From: Sphingomonadales bacterium | GTDB taxonomy: Bacteria > Pseudomonadota > Alphaproteobacteria > Sphingomonadales > Sphingomonadaceae | Direction: 5' to 3' | Length of the DNA: 64,000 nt | Assembly (NCBI GenBank): GCA_027486415.1 | Contig: JAIXPC010000002.1 | Location: 558,001-622,000 of the forward strand | Notes under the pieces: generated by a model | Databases searched by the model: none | Told to the model about the DNA's origin: nothing | The model's input: only the letters and a program-made list of their open reading frames with translations | Made by a program: the position numbers and the translations under genes | In this document: one piece after another, positions 25,680 to 31,631 of the stretch | Position numbering within the stretch: position 1 is the first letter of the stretch | Layout of the letters: each line of letters starts with the position of its first letter

Positions 25680-26426
25680 ATGGACAACGACGCCCCCCCA
25701 TCCCCGACGGTTGCGCTGGTTGATGACGACCGCAACATCCTCACGTCGGTATCGATCGCCTTGCAGGCCGAAGGTTTTGCCGTGCGGCTTTATTCGGACG
25801 GCGATACCGCACTGAAGGCCCTGATCGAAAACCAGCCCGATCTGGTGGTGCTGGATATCAAGATGCCGCGCATGGACGGGATGGAGGTGCTGCGCCGCCT
25901 GCGCGAGAAGAGCCAGGTGCCGGTGATCTTCCTGACCAGCAAGGATACCGAGATCGACGAGGCACTGGGCCTTGCGATGGGGGCCGACGACTATATCGGC
26001 AAGCCGTTCAGCCAGCGCCTGCTGATCGAACGGATCCGGGCGGTGCTGCGGCGCACGGCCAATCGCCGCGTTGCCATCGATGCGGCGGAGGCCGAAGCGC
26101 CGGCCGGTGATCCGATCGTGCGCGGGCGGCTGACGATGGACCCGGCGCGTCACCGCGTATTCTGGGACGCCGGTGAGGGCCGGCGCGGCGATGTTGCGCT
26201 GACGGTGACGGAGTTCATGATTCTCGAAACGCTGGCGGCGCGCCCGGGCTTCGTCAAATCGCGCGACCAGCTGATGGATGCCGCCTACAGCCACGACGTG
26301 TACGTGGATGATCGCACCATCGACAGCCACATCAAGCGGCTCAGGAAGAAGTTCCGCGCTGTCGACCACCAGTTCAAGGCGATCGAGACGCTGTATGGCG
26401 TCGGCTACCGCTTCAACGAGGAATAG
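25680..26426 (+). CDS. chvI: Two-component response regulator ChvI (OmpR family)
   Basis: A 248-residue regulator. The receiver domain (about 10-125) has the acidic pocket D15-D17, phospho-acceptor D59 in [12 protein letters not shown] and Lys in GKPFS; a winged-helix DNA-binding domain follows at about 140-245 ([19 protein letters not shown]-type wing, ending LYGVGYRF). It works with the kinase encoded 4 nt downstream. ChvI-type regulators control envelope, acid and succinoglycan-related genes in other alphaproteobacteria. The ATG at 25680 is preferred; an in-frame start at 25644 lies further upstream. Confidence 0.93.
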
Positions 26427-26430
26427 GCCG

Positions 26431-27972
26431 GTGCGCGCCGAGGAGGCGGTGCAGGAATGGCGCCGCGGCCTGGGCTTCGGCAACGTCAGGGCGCGCATCT
26501 TTGCGGTGAACGTGCTGGCGGTGATCGTGCTGGCGATCATGCTGCTCTATCTGGGCACGGTGCGGTCGCGCCTGCTGGATGAACGCACGGCCAGCCTGGC
26601 CAACGAAGCCACCACCGTGGCGCGGTTGGTGGCCGATCTGCCACCTGACCTGCGGCCCGGCAGCGTTGGCCGGCTGGGGCTGGAGCGCGGCACCCGCGTG
26701 CGGCTGTTTGCCAGCGATGGTGCGCGACTGGCGGACAATTGGCAGAACCCGCGCACGCCGCGATTCGTGATCGAAGATCCGACCGCCTATGGCTGGCGCC
26801 GGGCATCGGCCAAGGCCATCGATCGCGCGCTGGACGTGGTGCTGGGGTTCCGCACCCTCGCGCCCTATCGCGAACCGGCGGCCGACACCGCCGCCGCCTG
26901 GCCGGAACTGGCGAAAAGCATGGCCCGCACCGGCCCGGTGACCGACCTGCGGCGCGCGGGCGATGGCAGCCTGATCGTCACGGCGGCAGCGCCGGTGCCG
27001 GGCGATGGTGCGGTGTTGTTGACCGATTCCGCTGACGATCTGGCCGACATCCTGCGGCGCGAGCGACTGACCTCGGCCTGGCTGCTGCTCAGCGTGACGG
27101 GATTGACGCTGGGGCTGTCGCTGTATCTGACGCAAACCATCGTGCGGCCCTTGCGGATGCTGGCCATTGCCGCGCACCGGGTGCGGCTGGGGCGCAGCCG
27201 CGAAGTGGTGGTGCCGCGCCTGCCCGAACGGCGTGACGAGATTGGCGCGCTGGCCCGGGCCATTTCCGACATGTCGACGGCCCTGCGCCGGCAGATCGAC
27301 GCCACCGAGGCCTTTGCCGCCGATGTGGCGCACGAGCTGAAAAACCCGCTGGCCTCGCTGCGATCAGCCGTCGAGGTGCTGGAACGGGTCGAGCAGCCGG
27401 AACTGCGGGCGCAACTGCTGGGGGTGATCCAGGGCGACGTGGCCCGCATCGACCGGCTGATCACCGACATTGCCAACGCCAGCCGGCTTGATGCGGAATT
27501 GTCGCGCACCGGATTTCAAACCATTGATATCGCAGCGCTCTCTGATGGCCTTGTCAGCGCCTATGATATCGCCGGGCGCCCGCGCGAGATCGCGCTGGCG
27601 CGGAGCGGTCTGCCCGGCCCGGTGCTGATCGAGGGCGATGCGGGCCGTCTGGCGCAGGTGCTCAGAAACCTGATCGACAACGCCATCAGCTTCTCCCCCA
27701 CTGGCGGGACGGTGACGCTGGACGTGGCGCGCGATGGCGGTGGCGTGGTGCTGTCGGTCAGCGACGAGGGGCCGGGGGTGCCGCCGGCCAACCGCCGCGA
27801 CATCTTCCGGCGCTTCTATTCCGAACGGCCGGAAGGCGAGGATTTCGGCCAGCATTCCGGCCTGGGCCTGTCGATCGCTGCGGCCATCGTGACGGCGCAT
27901 GGCGGCAAGATCCGGGTGCATGATGCGCCCGGGGGCGGCGCATTGTTCCGCGTCATCCTGCCGGCGGCCTGA
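26431..27972 (+). CDS. chvG: Membrane sensor histidine kinase ChvG
   Basis: A 513-residue kinase starting with GTG at 26431, 4 nt after the chvI stop. First membrane helix at about residues 23-46 (IFAVNVLAVIVLAIMLLYLG), a periplasmic sensor domain to about 205, second helix at about 213-235, then HAMP. The HisKA box is FAADVAHELKNPLASL with phospho-His near residue 301, and the ATPase domain has NLIDNAISF, DEGPGVP and SGLGLSIAAAI. ChvG senses low pH or envelope changes in rhizobia; ExoR, its usual periplasmic inhibitor there, is not seen here. The hprK-rapZ frame begins 2 nt after its stop. Confidence 0.93.
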   Translation: MRAEEAVQEWRRGLGFGNVRARIFAVNVLAVIVLAIMLLYLGTVRSRLLDERTASLANEATTVARLVADLPPDLRPGSVGRLGLERGTRVRLFASDGARLADNWQNPRTPRFVIEDPTAYGWRRASAKAIDRALDVVLGFRTLAPYREPAADTAAAWPELAKSMARTGPVTDLRRAGDGSLIVTAAAPVPGDGAVLLTDSADDLADILRRERLTSAWLLLSVTGLTLGLSLYLTQTIVRPLRMLAIAAHRVRLGRSREVVVPRLPERRDEIGALARAISDMSTALRRQIDATEAFAADVAHELKNPLASLRSAVEVLERVEQPELRAQLLGVIQGDVARIDRLITDIANASRLDAELSRTGFQTIDIAALSDGLVSAYDIAGRPREIALARSGLPGPVLIEGDAGRLAQVLRNLIDNAISFSPTGGTVTLDVARDGGGVVLSVSDEGPGVPPANRRDIFRRFYSERPEGEDFGQHSGLGLSIAAAIVTAHGGKIRVHDAPGGGALFRVILPAA

Positions 27973-27974
27973 TC

Positions 27975-29324
27975 ATGGCTGCGCCCACCATCCATGCCGC
28001 TGCCGTGGCGCTGGATGGCCGCGCTGTGCTCATTCTGGGGCCATCGGGTGCCGGAAAGTCTGATCTTGCCCTGCGCCTGGTGGCCAGCGGGTGGCATCTG
28101 GTGGCCGATGATCGCGTGGTGCTGACCACGGTTGACGGTGCCCTGATCGCCAGTGCGCCGCCGCGCCTTTCCGGTCTCCTGGAAGTGCGCGGGGTCGGCA
28201 TCGTGCCCGAACCAACCGCGCCGGCACCGGTGGCGCTCGTGCTTGATCTCGCCCGAACGGCCGAACGGATGCCCGATATCGGCACCGTCGAAATGGCCGG
28301 CCACGCCATCCCCTGCCTTGGTTTTGATCCGTTCGGTGCATCGGCGCCGGAGCGGGCGGCGCGGGCCTTGGCAAGCCACGGGCTTCCCGTCACAAGGGCA
28401 GCCGTGAGCCAGCCCATCCTGATCATTTCCGGCCTTTCGGGCGCCGGCAAGTCGACCGTGCTGCGCGCACTGGAAGATGCCGGGCACGAGGTGGTCGACA
28501 ATCTGCCGTTTTCGCTGCTCGGCGGGCTGATCGCCGGCGAAACCAGCCGCCCGCTGGCGCTGGGGATCGACAGCCGCACCCGCGGCTTTGATGCCGCCGC
28601 ACTGGGCCAGGGCGTCGCGGCGCTCAGGGATGCCGGGCGCGATGTGCGGCTGATCTATCTCGATTGCGGCGATGACGTGCTGATCCGGCGCTTTTCCGAA
28701 ACCCGCCGCCGTCACCCGTTGAGCCAGGATCGCCCCGCCATCGACGGCATCCGCGCCGAACGTGACCTGCTGGCCCCCTTGCGGCGCTGGGCCGACCTGG
28801 TGATCGACACGACCGATCTTTCGGTCACCGATCTGCGCGGTCGCATCACCGATCGCTTTGGCGGCGGCTCGTCGCCCGGCCTTACCGTCACCATCCTCAG
28901 CTTTGGCTATTCCGCCGGGCTGCCGCGCGATGCCGATCTGGTGTTCGACATGCGCTTTCTGGCCAATCCGCACTGGCAGGCCGATCTGCGCCCGTTGACC
29001 GGCGAGGATGACCGCGTGGCGGCCTATGTTGCCCGGGACCCGCTGCATGCACCCACGCTCGACAAGATCGACGATCTCGTCCGCACCCTGCTTCCCGGCT
29101 ATGCGCGGGAGGGCAAGGCCTATCTGACGATCGCCATCGGTTGCACCGGCGGCCGCCACCGCAGCGTGGCCGTCGCCCGCGCCCTCGCGTCGCGGCTGGA
29201 AACCGCCGGCCACACTGTGGCGTTGCGGCATCGCGACATCGCCAAACAGACAGGTGATGCCGCCGAGTTGAAAGACGACCCATTGACAGACTCAGGTGAA
29301 CCGCGCGACGGCGAGACACGATGA
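27975..29324 (+). CDS. hprK-rapZ: HPr kinase/phosphorylase domain fused to RapZ (one continuous frame)
   Basis: A 449-codon frame with no internal stop. Residues 1-140 are the short alphaproteobacterial HprK: Walker A GPSGAGKS at 22-29, LVADDRV at 42-48 and the HprK signature LEVRGVGIV. Residues 144-440 are RapZ (YvcJ): a second Walker A GLSGAGKS at 153-160, VVDNLP, and the C-terminal signature IGCTGGRHRSVAVARALA. The genes are normally separate neighbours. A GTG at codon 144 (28404) with AAGGG upstream looks like the ancestral rapZ start, so separate RapZ could also be made by internal initiation. HprK phosphorylates Ser of HPr, encoded two genes downstream. A 1-nt sequence error could also create the fusion. 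Confidence 0.85.
   Translation: MAAPTIHAAAVALDGRAVLILGPSGAGKSDLALRLVASGWHLVADDRVVLTTVDGALIASAPPRLSGLLEVRGVGIVPEPTAPAPVALVLDLARTAERMPDIGTVEMAGHAIPCLGFDPFGASAPERAARALASHGLPVTRAAVSQPILIISGLSGAGKSTVLRALEDAGHEVVDNLPFSLLGGLIAGETSRPLALGIDSRTRGFDAAALGQGVAALRDAGRDVRLIYLDCGDDVLIRRFSETRRRHPLSQDRPAIDGIRAERDLLAPLRRWADLVIDTTDLSVTDLRGRITDRFGGGSSPGLTVTILSFGYSAGLPRDADLVFDMRFLANPHWQADLRPLTGEDDRVAAYVARDPLHAPTLDKIDDLVRTLLPGYAREGKAYLTIAIGCTGGRHRSVAVARALASRLETAGHTVALRHRDIAKQTGDAAELKDDPLTDSGEPRDGETR
28394..28406 (+). promoter_or_regulatory. Possible internal ribosome binding site and GTG start for RapZ
   Basis: AAGGG at 28394-28398, followed by GTG at 28404, sits exactly where HprK homology ends and RapZ homology begins. 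The GTG overlaps an out-of-frame TGA (GTGA), the junction type used by neighbouring genes. This suggests rapZ once started, or still starts, here. Confidence 0.45.
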
Positions 29325-29722
29325 TCGGACTGGTGCTGGTAACACATGGCCATCTGGCCGCCGAATTCGTGGCCGCGATGGAACATGTCGTGGGTCCACA
29401 GCCGCGCGTGGAAGCGATCTGCATTGCCGCCGATGACGACATGGAGCTACGCCGCGCCGATATCGCCGCCGCCGTCACCCGCTGCAACGTCGGCCAGGGC
29501 GTGATCATCCTCACCGACATGTTTGGCGGCACGCCGTCCAATCTTGCCATCTCGCTGCTGGGCCCGCAGGTAGAGGTGATTGCCGGCGTGAACCTGCCCA
29601 TGCTGATCAAGCTGGCCAGCGTGCGGAAAACCGGCACGGTCGAAACCGCCGTGCAGGCCGCCCAGGATGCCGGGCGCAAATATATCGCGGTCGCCAGCCG
29701 CATGCTGGGCGAAGCGGCTTGA
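29321..29722 (+). CDS. PTS system EIIA component, mannose family
   Basis: A 133-residue EIIA(Man)-type domain. The phosphorylated His is His9 in VLVTHGHLA, and the family motif ILTDMFGGTPSNLA is present. No EIIB or EIIC is encoded nearby, so it is a regulatory PTS protein and not part of a transporter. It overlaps the HprK-RapZ frame by 4 nt (ATGA) and ptsH by 4 nt (TTGA). Confidence 0.94.
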   Translation: MIGLVLVTHGHLAAEFVAAMEHVVGPQPRVEAICIAADDDMELRRADIAAAVTRCNVGQGVIILTDMFGGTPSNLAISLLGPQVEVIAGVNLPMLIKLASVRKTGTVETAVQAAQDAGRKYIAVASRMLGEAA

Positions 29723-30021
29723 GCGAGGCGCTGGCTTCACCGGGCGGCGCGATCGCCGGCCCCGTCACCGTGCCCATCACCAACCGTCGCGGCCTTCATG
29801 CCCGCGCCAGCGCCAAGTTCGTCACCGTCGCCTCTTCGTTCGATGCGGACGTGACCGTCAGCCATGATGGCTCGTCCGTCACCGGCACGTCGATCATGGG
29901 CCTGATGATGCTGGCCGCGGCCATGGGCGATTCCATCGACATCAGCGCGACCGGGCCCGAGGCGGAGGCCGCCGTGGCCAAGCTGGCCGGGCTGGTGCTG
30001 GACAAGTTCGGCGAGGATTGA
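29719..30021 (+). CDS. ptsH: Phosphocarrier protein HPr
   Basis: A 100-residue HPr. The catalytic His is His27 in NRRGLHARAS, and the Ser phosphorylated by HprK is Ser58 in GTSIMGLMML. It starts with TTG at 29719 overlapping the EIIA stop. The first 14 residues are an extension before the usual HPr start. Enzyme I is not downstream; the next gene is a peptidase, so HPr must be fed by an EI (probably PtsP) encoded elsewhere. Confidence 0.94.
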   Translation: MSEALASPGGAIAGPVTVPITNRRGLHARASAKFVTVASSFDADVTVSHDGSSVTGTSIMGLMMLAAAMGDSIDISATGPEAEAAVAKLAGLVLDKFGED

Positions 30022-30134: not shown

Positions 30135-31631
30135 ATGCGCCACCTCCTCCTCGCTGCCGCCCTTCTTTCCGCCCCCGTGTTTGCCAGGCCGGATGCCGAC
30201 ACGCGCCAGTGGCTGGCCCGCACCGCCGAACTCAGCAGCGATGCGATGGAGGGCCGCGATGCCGGCAGCCCCGGCCATGCCCGCGCCATCGATCTGGTGG
30301 AAGGCTGGTTCAAGGCCGCAAAGCTGCAACCGGCCGGTGAGAGCGGCAGCTTCCGCCAGACCGTGCGCCTGCATGAAGTCGCGGTAACAGCGGCCGATCT
30401 GCGCGTGATCGGCCCCGATGGCAGCGCCGCGCCGCTGAAATATCTGCACGACATCACGCCGCGCGCTGCAGTTGATCTGCCGGCCAGCCTGTCCGCGCCG
30501 ATGCGTTTCGCCGGCTATTGCAGCAAGGCGGAGGCCGGCCCCGAACTGAAGGGCAAGATGGCCGTCTGTTACGGCAGTCGCCGGCCCGGCCGGGCGCAGG
30601 CGGCGGAGCGGCTGGCGGCGGTGACGGCGGCGGGCGCGGTGGCGCTGCTCACCATCGATGATGTCGGCTTCACCGTCGAGCCGCCGCGCTGGCCTGACGC
30701 CTATGCCCGCAGCGTCGCGCACGAGGCCAACCCATTGCCCGGCGGCCTGCCGCAATTCCGCGTCAACGGGGCTGCACTGGCGACGCTGATCGCCGGATCG
30801 GGCCGGCTGGCGGCGGCGATCCTGACCGAGGGCACCTATCACCGCGACCTGGAAAGCTTCGACCTGCCGGGCCGGTTCGAAGCGAAGATCAGCACGGCGC
30901 AGCGCGCGTTCACCGCGCAGCAGTTTCTCGGCGTGCTGCCCGGCACCGACAAGGCAAAGGCGAGCGAATATCTGCTGCTCGGCGCGCATATCGATGGCTA
31001 TGGCTTTGGCGAGCCGGTGAATGGCGATGCGCTCTACAATGGCGCGCTGGATGATGCGGCCTATGTCGCGCTGCTGGCCCAGCTGGCGCACAACCGCCGC
31101 GGCAAGGGCTATGCCCGACCGGTGCTGTTCGCGGCGTGGACGGCGGAGGAAAAGGGCCTGCTGGGCGCGCGCTGGTGGCTGGCGCACCCGACCGTGCCGA
31201 AGGAGCAGGTTGTTGGCGTGATCAACCTTGATCAGCTGCGTCCGCTGTTCCCGCTGAAGGCGCTGACCCTGCACGGTCTGGGCCAGAACACGCTGGCCGA
31301 TACGGCCAAAGCGGTGGCGGAAGGCCTGAAGATCGAGATCCGTCCCGACCGCGAACCGGAACGCAACCTGATCCGCCGGGTGGACAGCTGGCCGTTCATG
31401 GAAGCCGGCATCCCGGCGGTGAACTTCATCTTCGCCTACAGCCCGCGCACCGAGGAAGAGCGGATCTACCGGGACTGGTACCAGCGCCGGTATCACCGCC
31501 CGCAAGATGACGCGGCAACGCCGATGGACCTGGATGCCGCGCGGGACTTCAACCGGTTTTTCTATGCGCTGGTGGAGCGGGCGGCGAATGGGGAGCGGCC
31601 TCTTCTGCTCACCGCTGCTAACCCGCGCTAG
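30135..31631 (+). CDS. Exported M28 family metallopeptidase
   Basis: About 498 residues with a signal peptide (MRHLLLAAALLSAPVFA). The zinc peptidase core carries the expected ligands: His/Asp in LGAHIDGYG, Asp in NGALDDAAY, Glu-Glu in WTAEEKGLLGA, Asp in VINLDQLRP and His in RYHRPQDD. A PA-like insert lies at about 130-240. It probably acts as an aminopeptidase in the periplasm. The ATG at 30135 gives a proper signal peptide; an earlier open frame runs through the palindromic repeat and is not real. The stop shares a CTAG with the convergent small gene. Confidence 0.92.
   Translation: MRHLLLAAALLSAPVFARPDADTRQWLARTAELSSDAMEGRDAGSPGHARAIDLVEGWFKAAKLQPAGESGSFRQTVRLHEVAVTAADLRVIGPDGSAAPLKYLHDITPRAAVDLPASLSAPMRFAGYCSKAEAGPELKGKMAVCYGSRRPGRAQAAERLAAVTAAGAVALLTIDDVGFTVEPPRWPDAYARSVAHEANPLPGGLPQFRVNGAALATLIAGSGRLAAAILTEGTYHRDLESFDLPGRFEAKISTAQRAFTAQQFLGVLPGTDKAKASEYLLLGAHIDGYGFGEPVNGDALYNGALDDAAYVALLAQLAHNRRGKGYARPVLFAAWTAEEKGLLGARWWLAHPTVPKEQVVGVINLDQLRPLFPLKALTLHGLGQNTLADTAKAVAEGLKIEIRPDREPERNLIRRVDSWPFMEAGIPAVNFIFAYSPRTEEERIYRDWYQRRYHRPQDDAATPMDLDAARDFNRFFYALVERAANGERPLLLTAANPR

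Follow-up and report, generated by a model that had tools for sequence, protein, structure and literature searches.

A recurrent in-frame fusion of hprK and rapZ in Alphaproteobacteria, with a start codon conserved between its two halves in Sphingomonadaceae

The window analysed here, a 64,000-nucleotide stretch of DNA, comes from a freshwater-type alphaproteobacterium whose closest named relatives are species of Sandarakinorhabdus and metagenome bins related to them. HprK, a kinase of the phosphotransfer system, and RapZ, a sensor of cell-envelope precursors, are normally separate regulators. An earlier note on this DNA had proposed that HprK and RapZ are read as one continuous protein, and the sequence agrees: a single stop-free frame of 449 codons opens with ATG, closes with a TGA at 29322-29324 and carries domain matches for both families (Table 1). 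The note had also placed this frame beside ChvGI, and domain matches locate it directly among the ChvGI, EIIA-Man and HPr genes (the name ChvI is that of the earlier note and follows gene order). The fused gene begins two bases past the end of the ChvG-type sensor kinase gene, and its stop codon overlaps the start codon of the EIIA-Man gene (ATGA). The HPr frame opens with a TTG that overlaps the end of the EIIA gene, and a peptidase M28 gene follows the HPr gene at 30138-31628. A gene for PEP carboxykinase lies upstream of the cluster on the opposite strand, and an enzyme I match is present elsewhere in the window's genome.

Table 1. Features of the hprK-rapZ locus, with positions in the window, and the HPr genes of two relatives in which hprK was not found, with positions in the respective locus
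Feature	Position	Strand	Basis or remark
ChvI-type response regulator	25680-26426	+	Response_reg, Trans_reg_C; start codon approximate
ChvG-type sensor kinase	26386-27972	+	HisKA, HATPase_c, HAMP, Sensor_TM1; start codon approximate
hprK-rapZ fused gene	27975-29324	+	449 aa; open frame and domain matches
HprK domain, residues 1-136	27975-28382	+	Pfam, motifs; confident in model
Interdomain linker, residues 137-147	28383-28415	+	pLDDT below 50 at residues 141-144
AAGGG, possible Shine-Dalgarno sequence of internal start	28394-28398	+	Sequence; not conserved in relatives
Possible free RapZ, 306 aa, from GTG at 28404-28406 (residue 144)	28404-29324	+	Start-codon column of alignment; use inferred
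RapZ N-terminal kinase-like domain, residues 148-297, Walker A GLSGAGKS	28416-28865	+	Pfam
RapZ C-terminal domain, residues 303-422, CTGGRHRS	28881-29240	+	Pfam
EIIA-Man-like PTS protein	29321-29722	+	Domain match
HPr/NPr, histidine site GLHARAS, serine site GTSIMGL	29719-30021	+	Presumed HprK target
HPr with Asp at HprK-target Ser	L024:2845-3108	rapZ-carrying strand	hprK-less genus member
HPr with Asp at HprK-target Ser	L023:2887-3147	rapZ-carrying strand	hprK-less genus member

The two Walker A motifs and the signatures EVRGVGIV and CTGGRHRS that the note had listed are all present in the translation. The landmarks of the HprK domain are His7, the Walker A motif GPSGAGKS at residues 22-29, Asp45-Asp46 and EVRGVGIV at residues 70-77. 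Pfam profiles scored above their cut-offs for each domain, with 67.5 bits (cut-off 33.3) for Hpr_kinase_C at residues 5-77, 143.4 bits for RapZ-like_N at residues 148-297 and 153.1 bits for the RapZ C-terminal domain at residues 303-422. At the level of NCBIfam equivalogs, the RapZ profile NF003828 was matched over its full length (positions 1-278 of 278) by residues 148-422, where it scored 334 bits (cut-off 244), whereas the HprK equivalog reached 73 bits, far under its cut-off of 240. This low score fits the short alphaproteobacterial form of HprK. The idea that both domains are complete stands as it was for RapZ, but for HprK it needs the qualifier that the complete domain is of this short form. 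Relatives with solved structures are 5o5q for the RapZ half (E 7e-61 over residues 145-425) and 1jb1 for the HprK half (E 9e-13 over residues 5-78). In an AlphaFold model built from 28 sequences (mean pLDDT 83.7), both domains are mostly confident and pLDDT falls below 50 at residues 141-144, 298-301 and 427-449. The pTM was only 0.45, so the placement of the domains of HprK-RapZ relative to one another in the model is of low confidence.

We examined 24 genomes of the Sandarakinorhabdus-like genus to which the window belongs. In all 22 genomes in which hprK was found it is in frame with rapZ, and in none of them does a stop codon separate the domains. The fused frame is complete in 20 genomes, and in G006 and G023 it continues across the junction and is cut by contig ends; hprK was not found in the other two genomes, G013 and G018. 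The same in-frame join is present in nine named records from isolates and metagenomes (L031-L039), among them Sandarakinorhabdus limnophila (L033). Two outcomes named beforehand as counting against the fusion, an indel error at the junction and separate genes in all close relatives with a stop near 28405, are both contradicted by the 22 genomes, and the join they hold in common rules out a sequencing slip. A second, partial fused copy (L082) lies at a contig end in G005, a 75% complete genome, and may reflect contamination or duplication.

The earlier note had proposed a search of relatives for the same fusion, and the fusion proved not to be peculiar to this genome. Within the family, 246 of 249 genomes gave matches, at least nine of which, including that of the window, span both halves without a stop (in g1, g93 and g84), and a search of the class (213 of 385 genomes matched) gave at least four such matches besides the window. 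These counts are lower bounds because not every genome with the halves as two matches was frame-checked; G026 and G644 were reported as two matches and proved to be fused once the loci were read. Three other Sphingomonadaceae genera carry the fusion, namely g93 (both genomes), g84 and g4 (G026). In g84 the genes are fused in two of the five genomes with a match (L060 and L063) and split in three (L061, L084 and L085), with the split in G234 made by a stop in the same frame, indicating that the fusion is dispensable in this genus. Fused genes also occur in all 12 genomes of family f35 (L123-L132, L092 and L098), in three genomes of f67 (G567, G644 and G689, or 3 of 28 loci where both halves were found, from matches in 29 of 39 genomes) and in one genome of f19 (G304). 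Most alphaproteobacterial loci read outside the fused groups have two close genes, with hprK commonly in the +1 frame relative to rapZ. In a search of the phylum, 64 of 398 genomes matched with E up to 1e-70, all of them within the class (new loci not frame-checked); among the matches listed, those spanning both halves without a stop were G000, G320 and G450, at a threshold that would miss distant fusions.

A tree of 97 RapZ rows needs five changes between fused and split states, of which three are forced, and a tree of 79 hand-picked loci needs at least six, of which four are forced by well supported (starred) branches. The Sphingomonadaceae fusions form one group that includes the three split g84 genes, with support of 87 in the 97-row tree and 94 in the 79-locus tree. 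When two genes become fused more than once, this is classically taken to hint that their products are physical and functional partners, and the presence of the hprK-rapZ join in several bacterial groups suggests that the two proteins work together.

The kinase motifs of the HprK half are intact. His7, Lys28, Ser29, Asp45, Asp46, Glu70 and Arg72 are invariant in 28 aligned fused proteins. Compared with the HprK signature consensus (ILM)E(IV)RG(ILMV)G(IV)(ILM) given in PMC2937029, the stretch LEVRGVGIV fits at the first eight positions, with P rather than I, L or M recorded for the ninth. The Hpr_kinase_C match ends at position 81 of the 171-position profile, which might reflect either absence of the C-terminal phosphorylase region or divergence. 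In PMC2937029, alphaproteobacterial HprK is described as being without the N-terminal domain and without a C-terminal region on which the phosphorylase activity of firmicute enzymes depends. Brucella is reported there to have a short HprK that is a working NPr-serine kinase but barely dephosphorylates serine-phosphorylated NPr.

The distribution of the target serine offers a view of whether this kinase is active. The HPr encoded in the window carries it, as do the HPr proteins at all 101 readable loci with hprK, a count that includes repeat copies of some genomes (such as L031-L039) and leaves out two unreadable truncated loci and loci without HPr in the stretch. In contrast, the motif of HPr in both hprK-less genus members is GTDIMEL, where Asp replaces Ser and Glu replaces Gly, the Asp being a natural phosphomimic. 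No match to PF07475 was found in G013 or G018, and the same search found one in four of four fused control genomes. A PF07475 match is also reported for Caulobacter vibrioides, another control. The two hprK-less genomes pair as sisters with a support of 97 and fall inside the fused genes, so the contrast between Ser and Asp counts as one evolutionary event. G013 is a 92% complete draft in which no enzyme I match was seen either, and its missing genes may therefore partly be assembly gaps. G018 is 99% complete and has an enzyme I match, and its rapZ directly follows the sensor kinase gene. If an active HPr-Ser kinase had been lost, an aspartate at this site is the kind of trace to be predicted, and the HprK half of the fusion is thus probably live.

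In the RapZ half, the equivalents of all six pocket residues named for E. coli RapZ in PMC9841335 (H190, C247, T248, G249, H252 and R253) are kept. The basic RNA-contact residues of the C-terminal domain, K170, R184, K194, R196, R211, R238 and K251, are less well conserved: three are identical, two are changed conservatively (R238 to K and K251 to R) and two are lost (K170 to S and K194 to D). E. coli H171 is likewise not kept. The last 19 residues of E. coli RapZ include eight Lys or Arg (PMC5737377), but only about three were counted by eye on the alignment in the equivalent tail here, so that most of the basic tail is not kept. The Walker A lysine of RapZ is present in the window and replaced by Arg in some other fused proteins. 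With the pocket intact and the RNA-contact residues and tail partly lost, sensing of a metabolite is likelier to be conserved than delivery of GlmZ. Because E. coli RapZ acts via GlmZ, these losses (K170, H171, K194 and the tail) also imply that the role of RapZ here may differ from that in E. coli.

The earlier note had further drawn attention to an AAGGG followed by a GTG at the domain border, from which free RapZ could be initiated. Both elements are where it placed them and the start codon is kept among relatives, but AAGGG is not conserved. All 25 complete fused Sphingomonadaceae genes have a start codon at the position of the old RapZ start (ATG in seven and GTG in 18, two of the latter in rows shifted by an alignment gap), and this column is the only one of 442 in the alignment to be made of start codons alone. 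Valine is encoded by GTG in all 16 rows of the column that have it (18 of 18 once the gap-shifted pair is counted), and among 23 Val-rich columns this is the only one with GTG alone, even though the rows include genes in which GTG makes up just 13-39% of Val codons. The chance of such a GTG-only column is about 0.006 when one row is taken from each of four lineages, the lineages having been picked afterwards. Shine-Dalgarno sequences are not enriched at the internal start, where their strength ranks at a mean of 0.48 among in-frame positions and at 0.18 in the window, and no raised synonymous constraint was found at the junction of the fused genes. The linker sequence itself is variable among the fused proteins.

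A second feature of the junction lies out of frame. Outside the window's subclade, 11 of 13 fused Sphingomonadaceae genes (L013, L014, L016-L018, L020, L025, L058-L060 and L063) have a GTA or CTA codon four or five codons (11-14 bases) before the internal start, which creates a stop in the +1 frame (TAG or TAA). This is the most extreme column of the 13-gene group (z 8.1), in which GTA makes up 3.6% of Val codons and CTA 0.9% of Leu codons, the 11 included. In the window's subclade the stop in the +1 frame is instead a TGA overlapping or just past the internal start. No shared slip site was seen near the GTA/CTA codons when these were read by eye, and for this reason we consider a programmed +1 frameshift releasing HprK less likely. 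We take the out-of-frame stop to be a remnant of the former hprK stop and of the ribosome-binding region, and one that is perhaps still useful to initiation.

If the Val or Met in the linker were kept for the sake of the protein rather than for initiation, the gene would yield the full-length fusion alone. The absence of Shine-Dalgarno enrichment agrees with such an explanation, as does family f35, whose fusions manage without a conserved start codon in the linker (12 genomes). At least four of the 12 f35 linkers (L092, L098, L123 and L128) lack any ATG, GTG or TTG in the roughly 30 codons ahead of RapZ, so that the fusion is probably the sole product of those genes. Selection on the protein would not readily explain, however, why only Met and Val occur at the site and why Val is always GTG, a pattern with the low chance probability given above, nor why in G013, without hprK, a GTG stands at what appears by eye to be the former internal start. 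On balance we regard this explanation of the column as somewhat unlikely, and production of some free RapZ as probable.

The chief rival to a functional fusion is that the stop between two close genes was lost neutrally, leaving domains that work independently on a tether without function. The genes are close together in relatives, overlapping in some, and given such spacing one lost stop or a small indel would suffice to join them; the variable linker with its low model confidence and the split form in some members of g84 also suit a neutral origin. Neutral loss nevertheless fits less well with recurrence of the fusion in several lineages, with its retention in every genus member that has hprK and in every f35 genome, or with the f35 linkers from which no separate RapZ is likely to be started. 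These points weaken neutral fusion, which seems to us unlikely. As for an assembly or frameshift error, the join shared by all 22 genus genomes that have hprK and by the nine records L031-L039 leads us to reject it as the source, and we assign it a negligible probability.

The reading we favor, with a probability of roughly 0.6, is that the gene encodes a functional bifunctional HprK-RapZ protein whose RapZ domain may tune or localize the kinase, and that free RapZ is probably also made. Under this reading, the neighbors hprK and rapZ would have been joined into one gene in the ancestor of the genus and some related genera. The HprK domain of the single-chain product would use ATP to place a phosphate on the regulatory serine of HPr, whose gene lies two genes downstream, and the flow of phosphate from HPr to EIIA proteins would be slowed as a result. 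With its sugar-phosphate pocket kept, the RapZ domain may report the supply of amino sugars (GlcN6P or UDP-GlcNAc), and once tethered it may set or localize HprK activity. A single polypeptide may in this way bring PTS regulation and envelope sensing together, as the earlier note had suggested. In this genus the start codon kept in the linker would probably yield some free RapZ as well, such that RapZ oligomers could mix fused and unfused subunits. It is the recurrence of the fusion that suggests regulation of HprK by RapZ, a regulation in which the metabolite pocket may steer the kinase.

A bolder proposal is that RapZ is the missing controller of the cut-down alphaproteobacterial HprK, with its amino-sugar pocket, and perhaps also its kinase-like domain, switching HPr-serine phosphorylation or supplying the dephosphorylation that is weak in the short enzyme; we consider this speculative and quite doubtful. 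If it were true, the repeated fusions would reveal a conserved HprK-RapZ complex that exists also where the genes are separate, and this complex would tie the phosphotransfer system to the supply of envelope precursors under ChvGI. The fusion allows a direct test of whether an amino sugar on RapZ changes HPr-serine phosphorylation, and the two relatives without detectable HprK, in which Asp takes the place of the HPr serine, offer a natural experiment on the effect of the modification.

Both halves of the protein belong to known families, and as far as the literature searched shows their join is a new architecture: no description of an HprK-RapZ fusion was found, in a coverage from which subscription journals are mostly absent. 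RapZ is not known to have a defined role outside enteric bacteria and Bacillus. YvcJ of Bacillus subtilis is not known to be joined to HprK. This RapZ homolog is tied to amino-sugar control and binds UDP-GlcNAc (PMC9841335, PMC6171935). In Salmonella, the PTS-Ntr system and RapZ both act on GlmS, one on its activity and the other on its synthesis (PMC5024086). Relative to E. coli RapZ/YhbJ (PDB 5O5O, 5O5Q), the fused protein has both RapZ domains at full length and the same pocket residues, but it has a kinase domain added in front and has lost three residues (K170, H171 and K194) as well as most of the basic tail. In E. coli, rapZ lies in the rpoN operon and hprK is absent (PMC13104625). The closest counterpart of the HprK half is HprK/P of Brucella melitensis, which has the same short kinase domain and a substrate in which the serine is present (PMC2937029). 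Brucella hprK occupies a similar place, after a BvrS/ChvG-type sensor kinase gene and before the EIIA-Man and HPr/NPr genes (PMC9491525 and PMC2937029), but in B. melitensis it is a separate gene, whereas here it is joined to rapZ.
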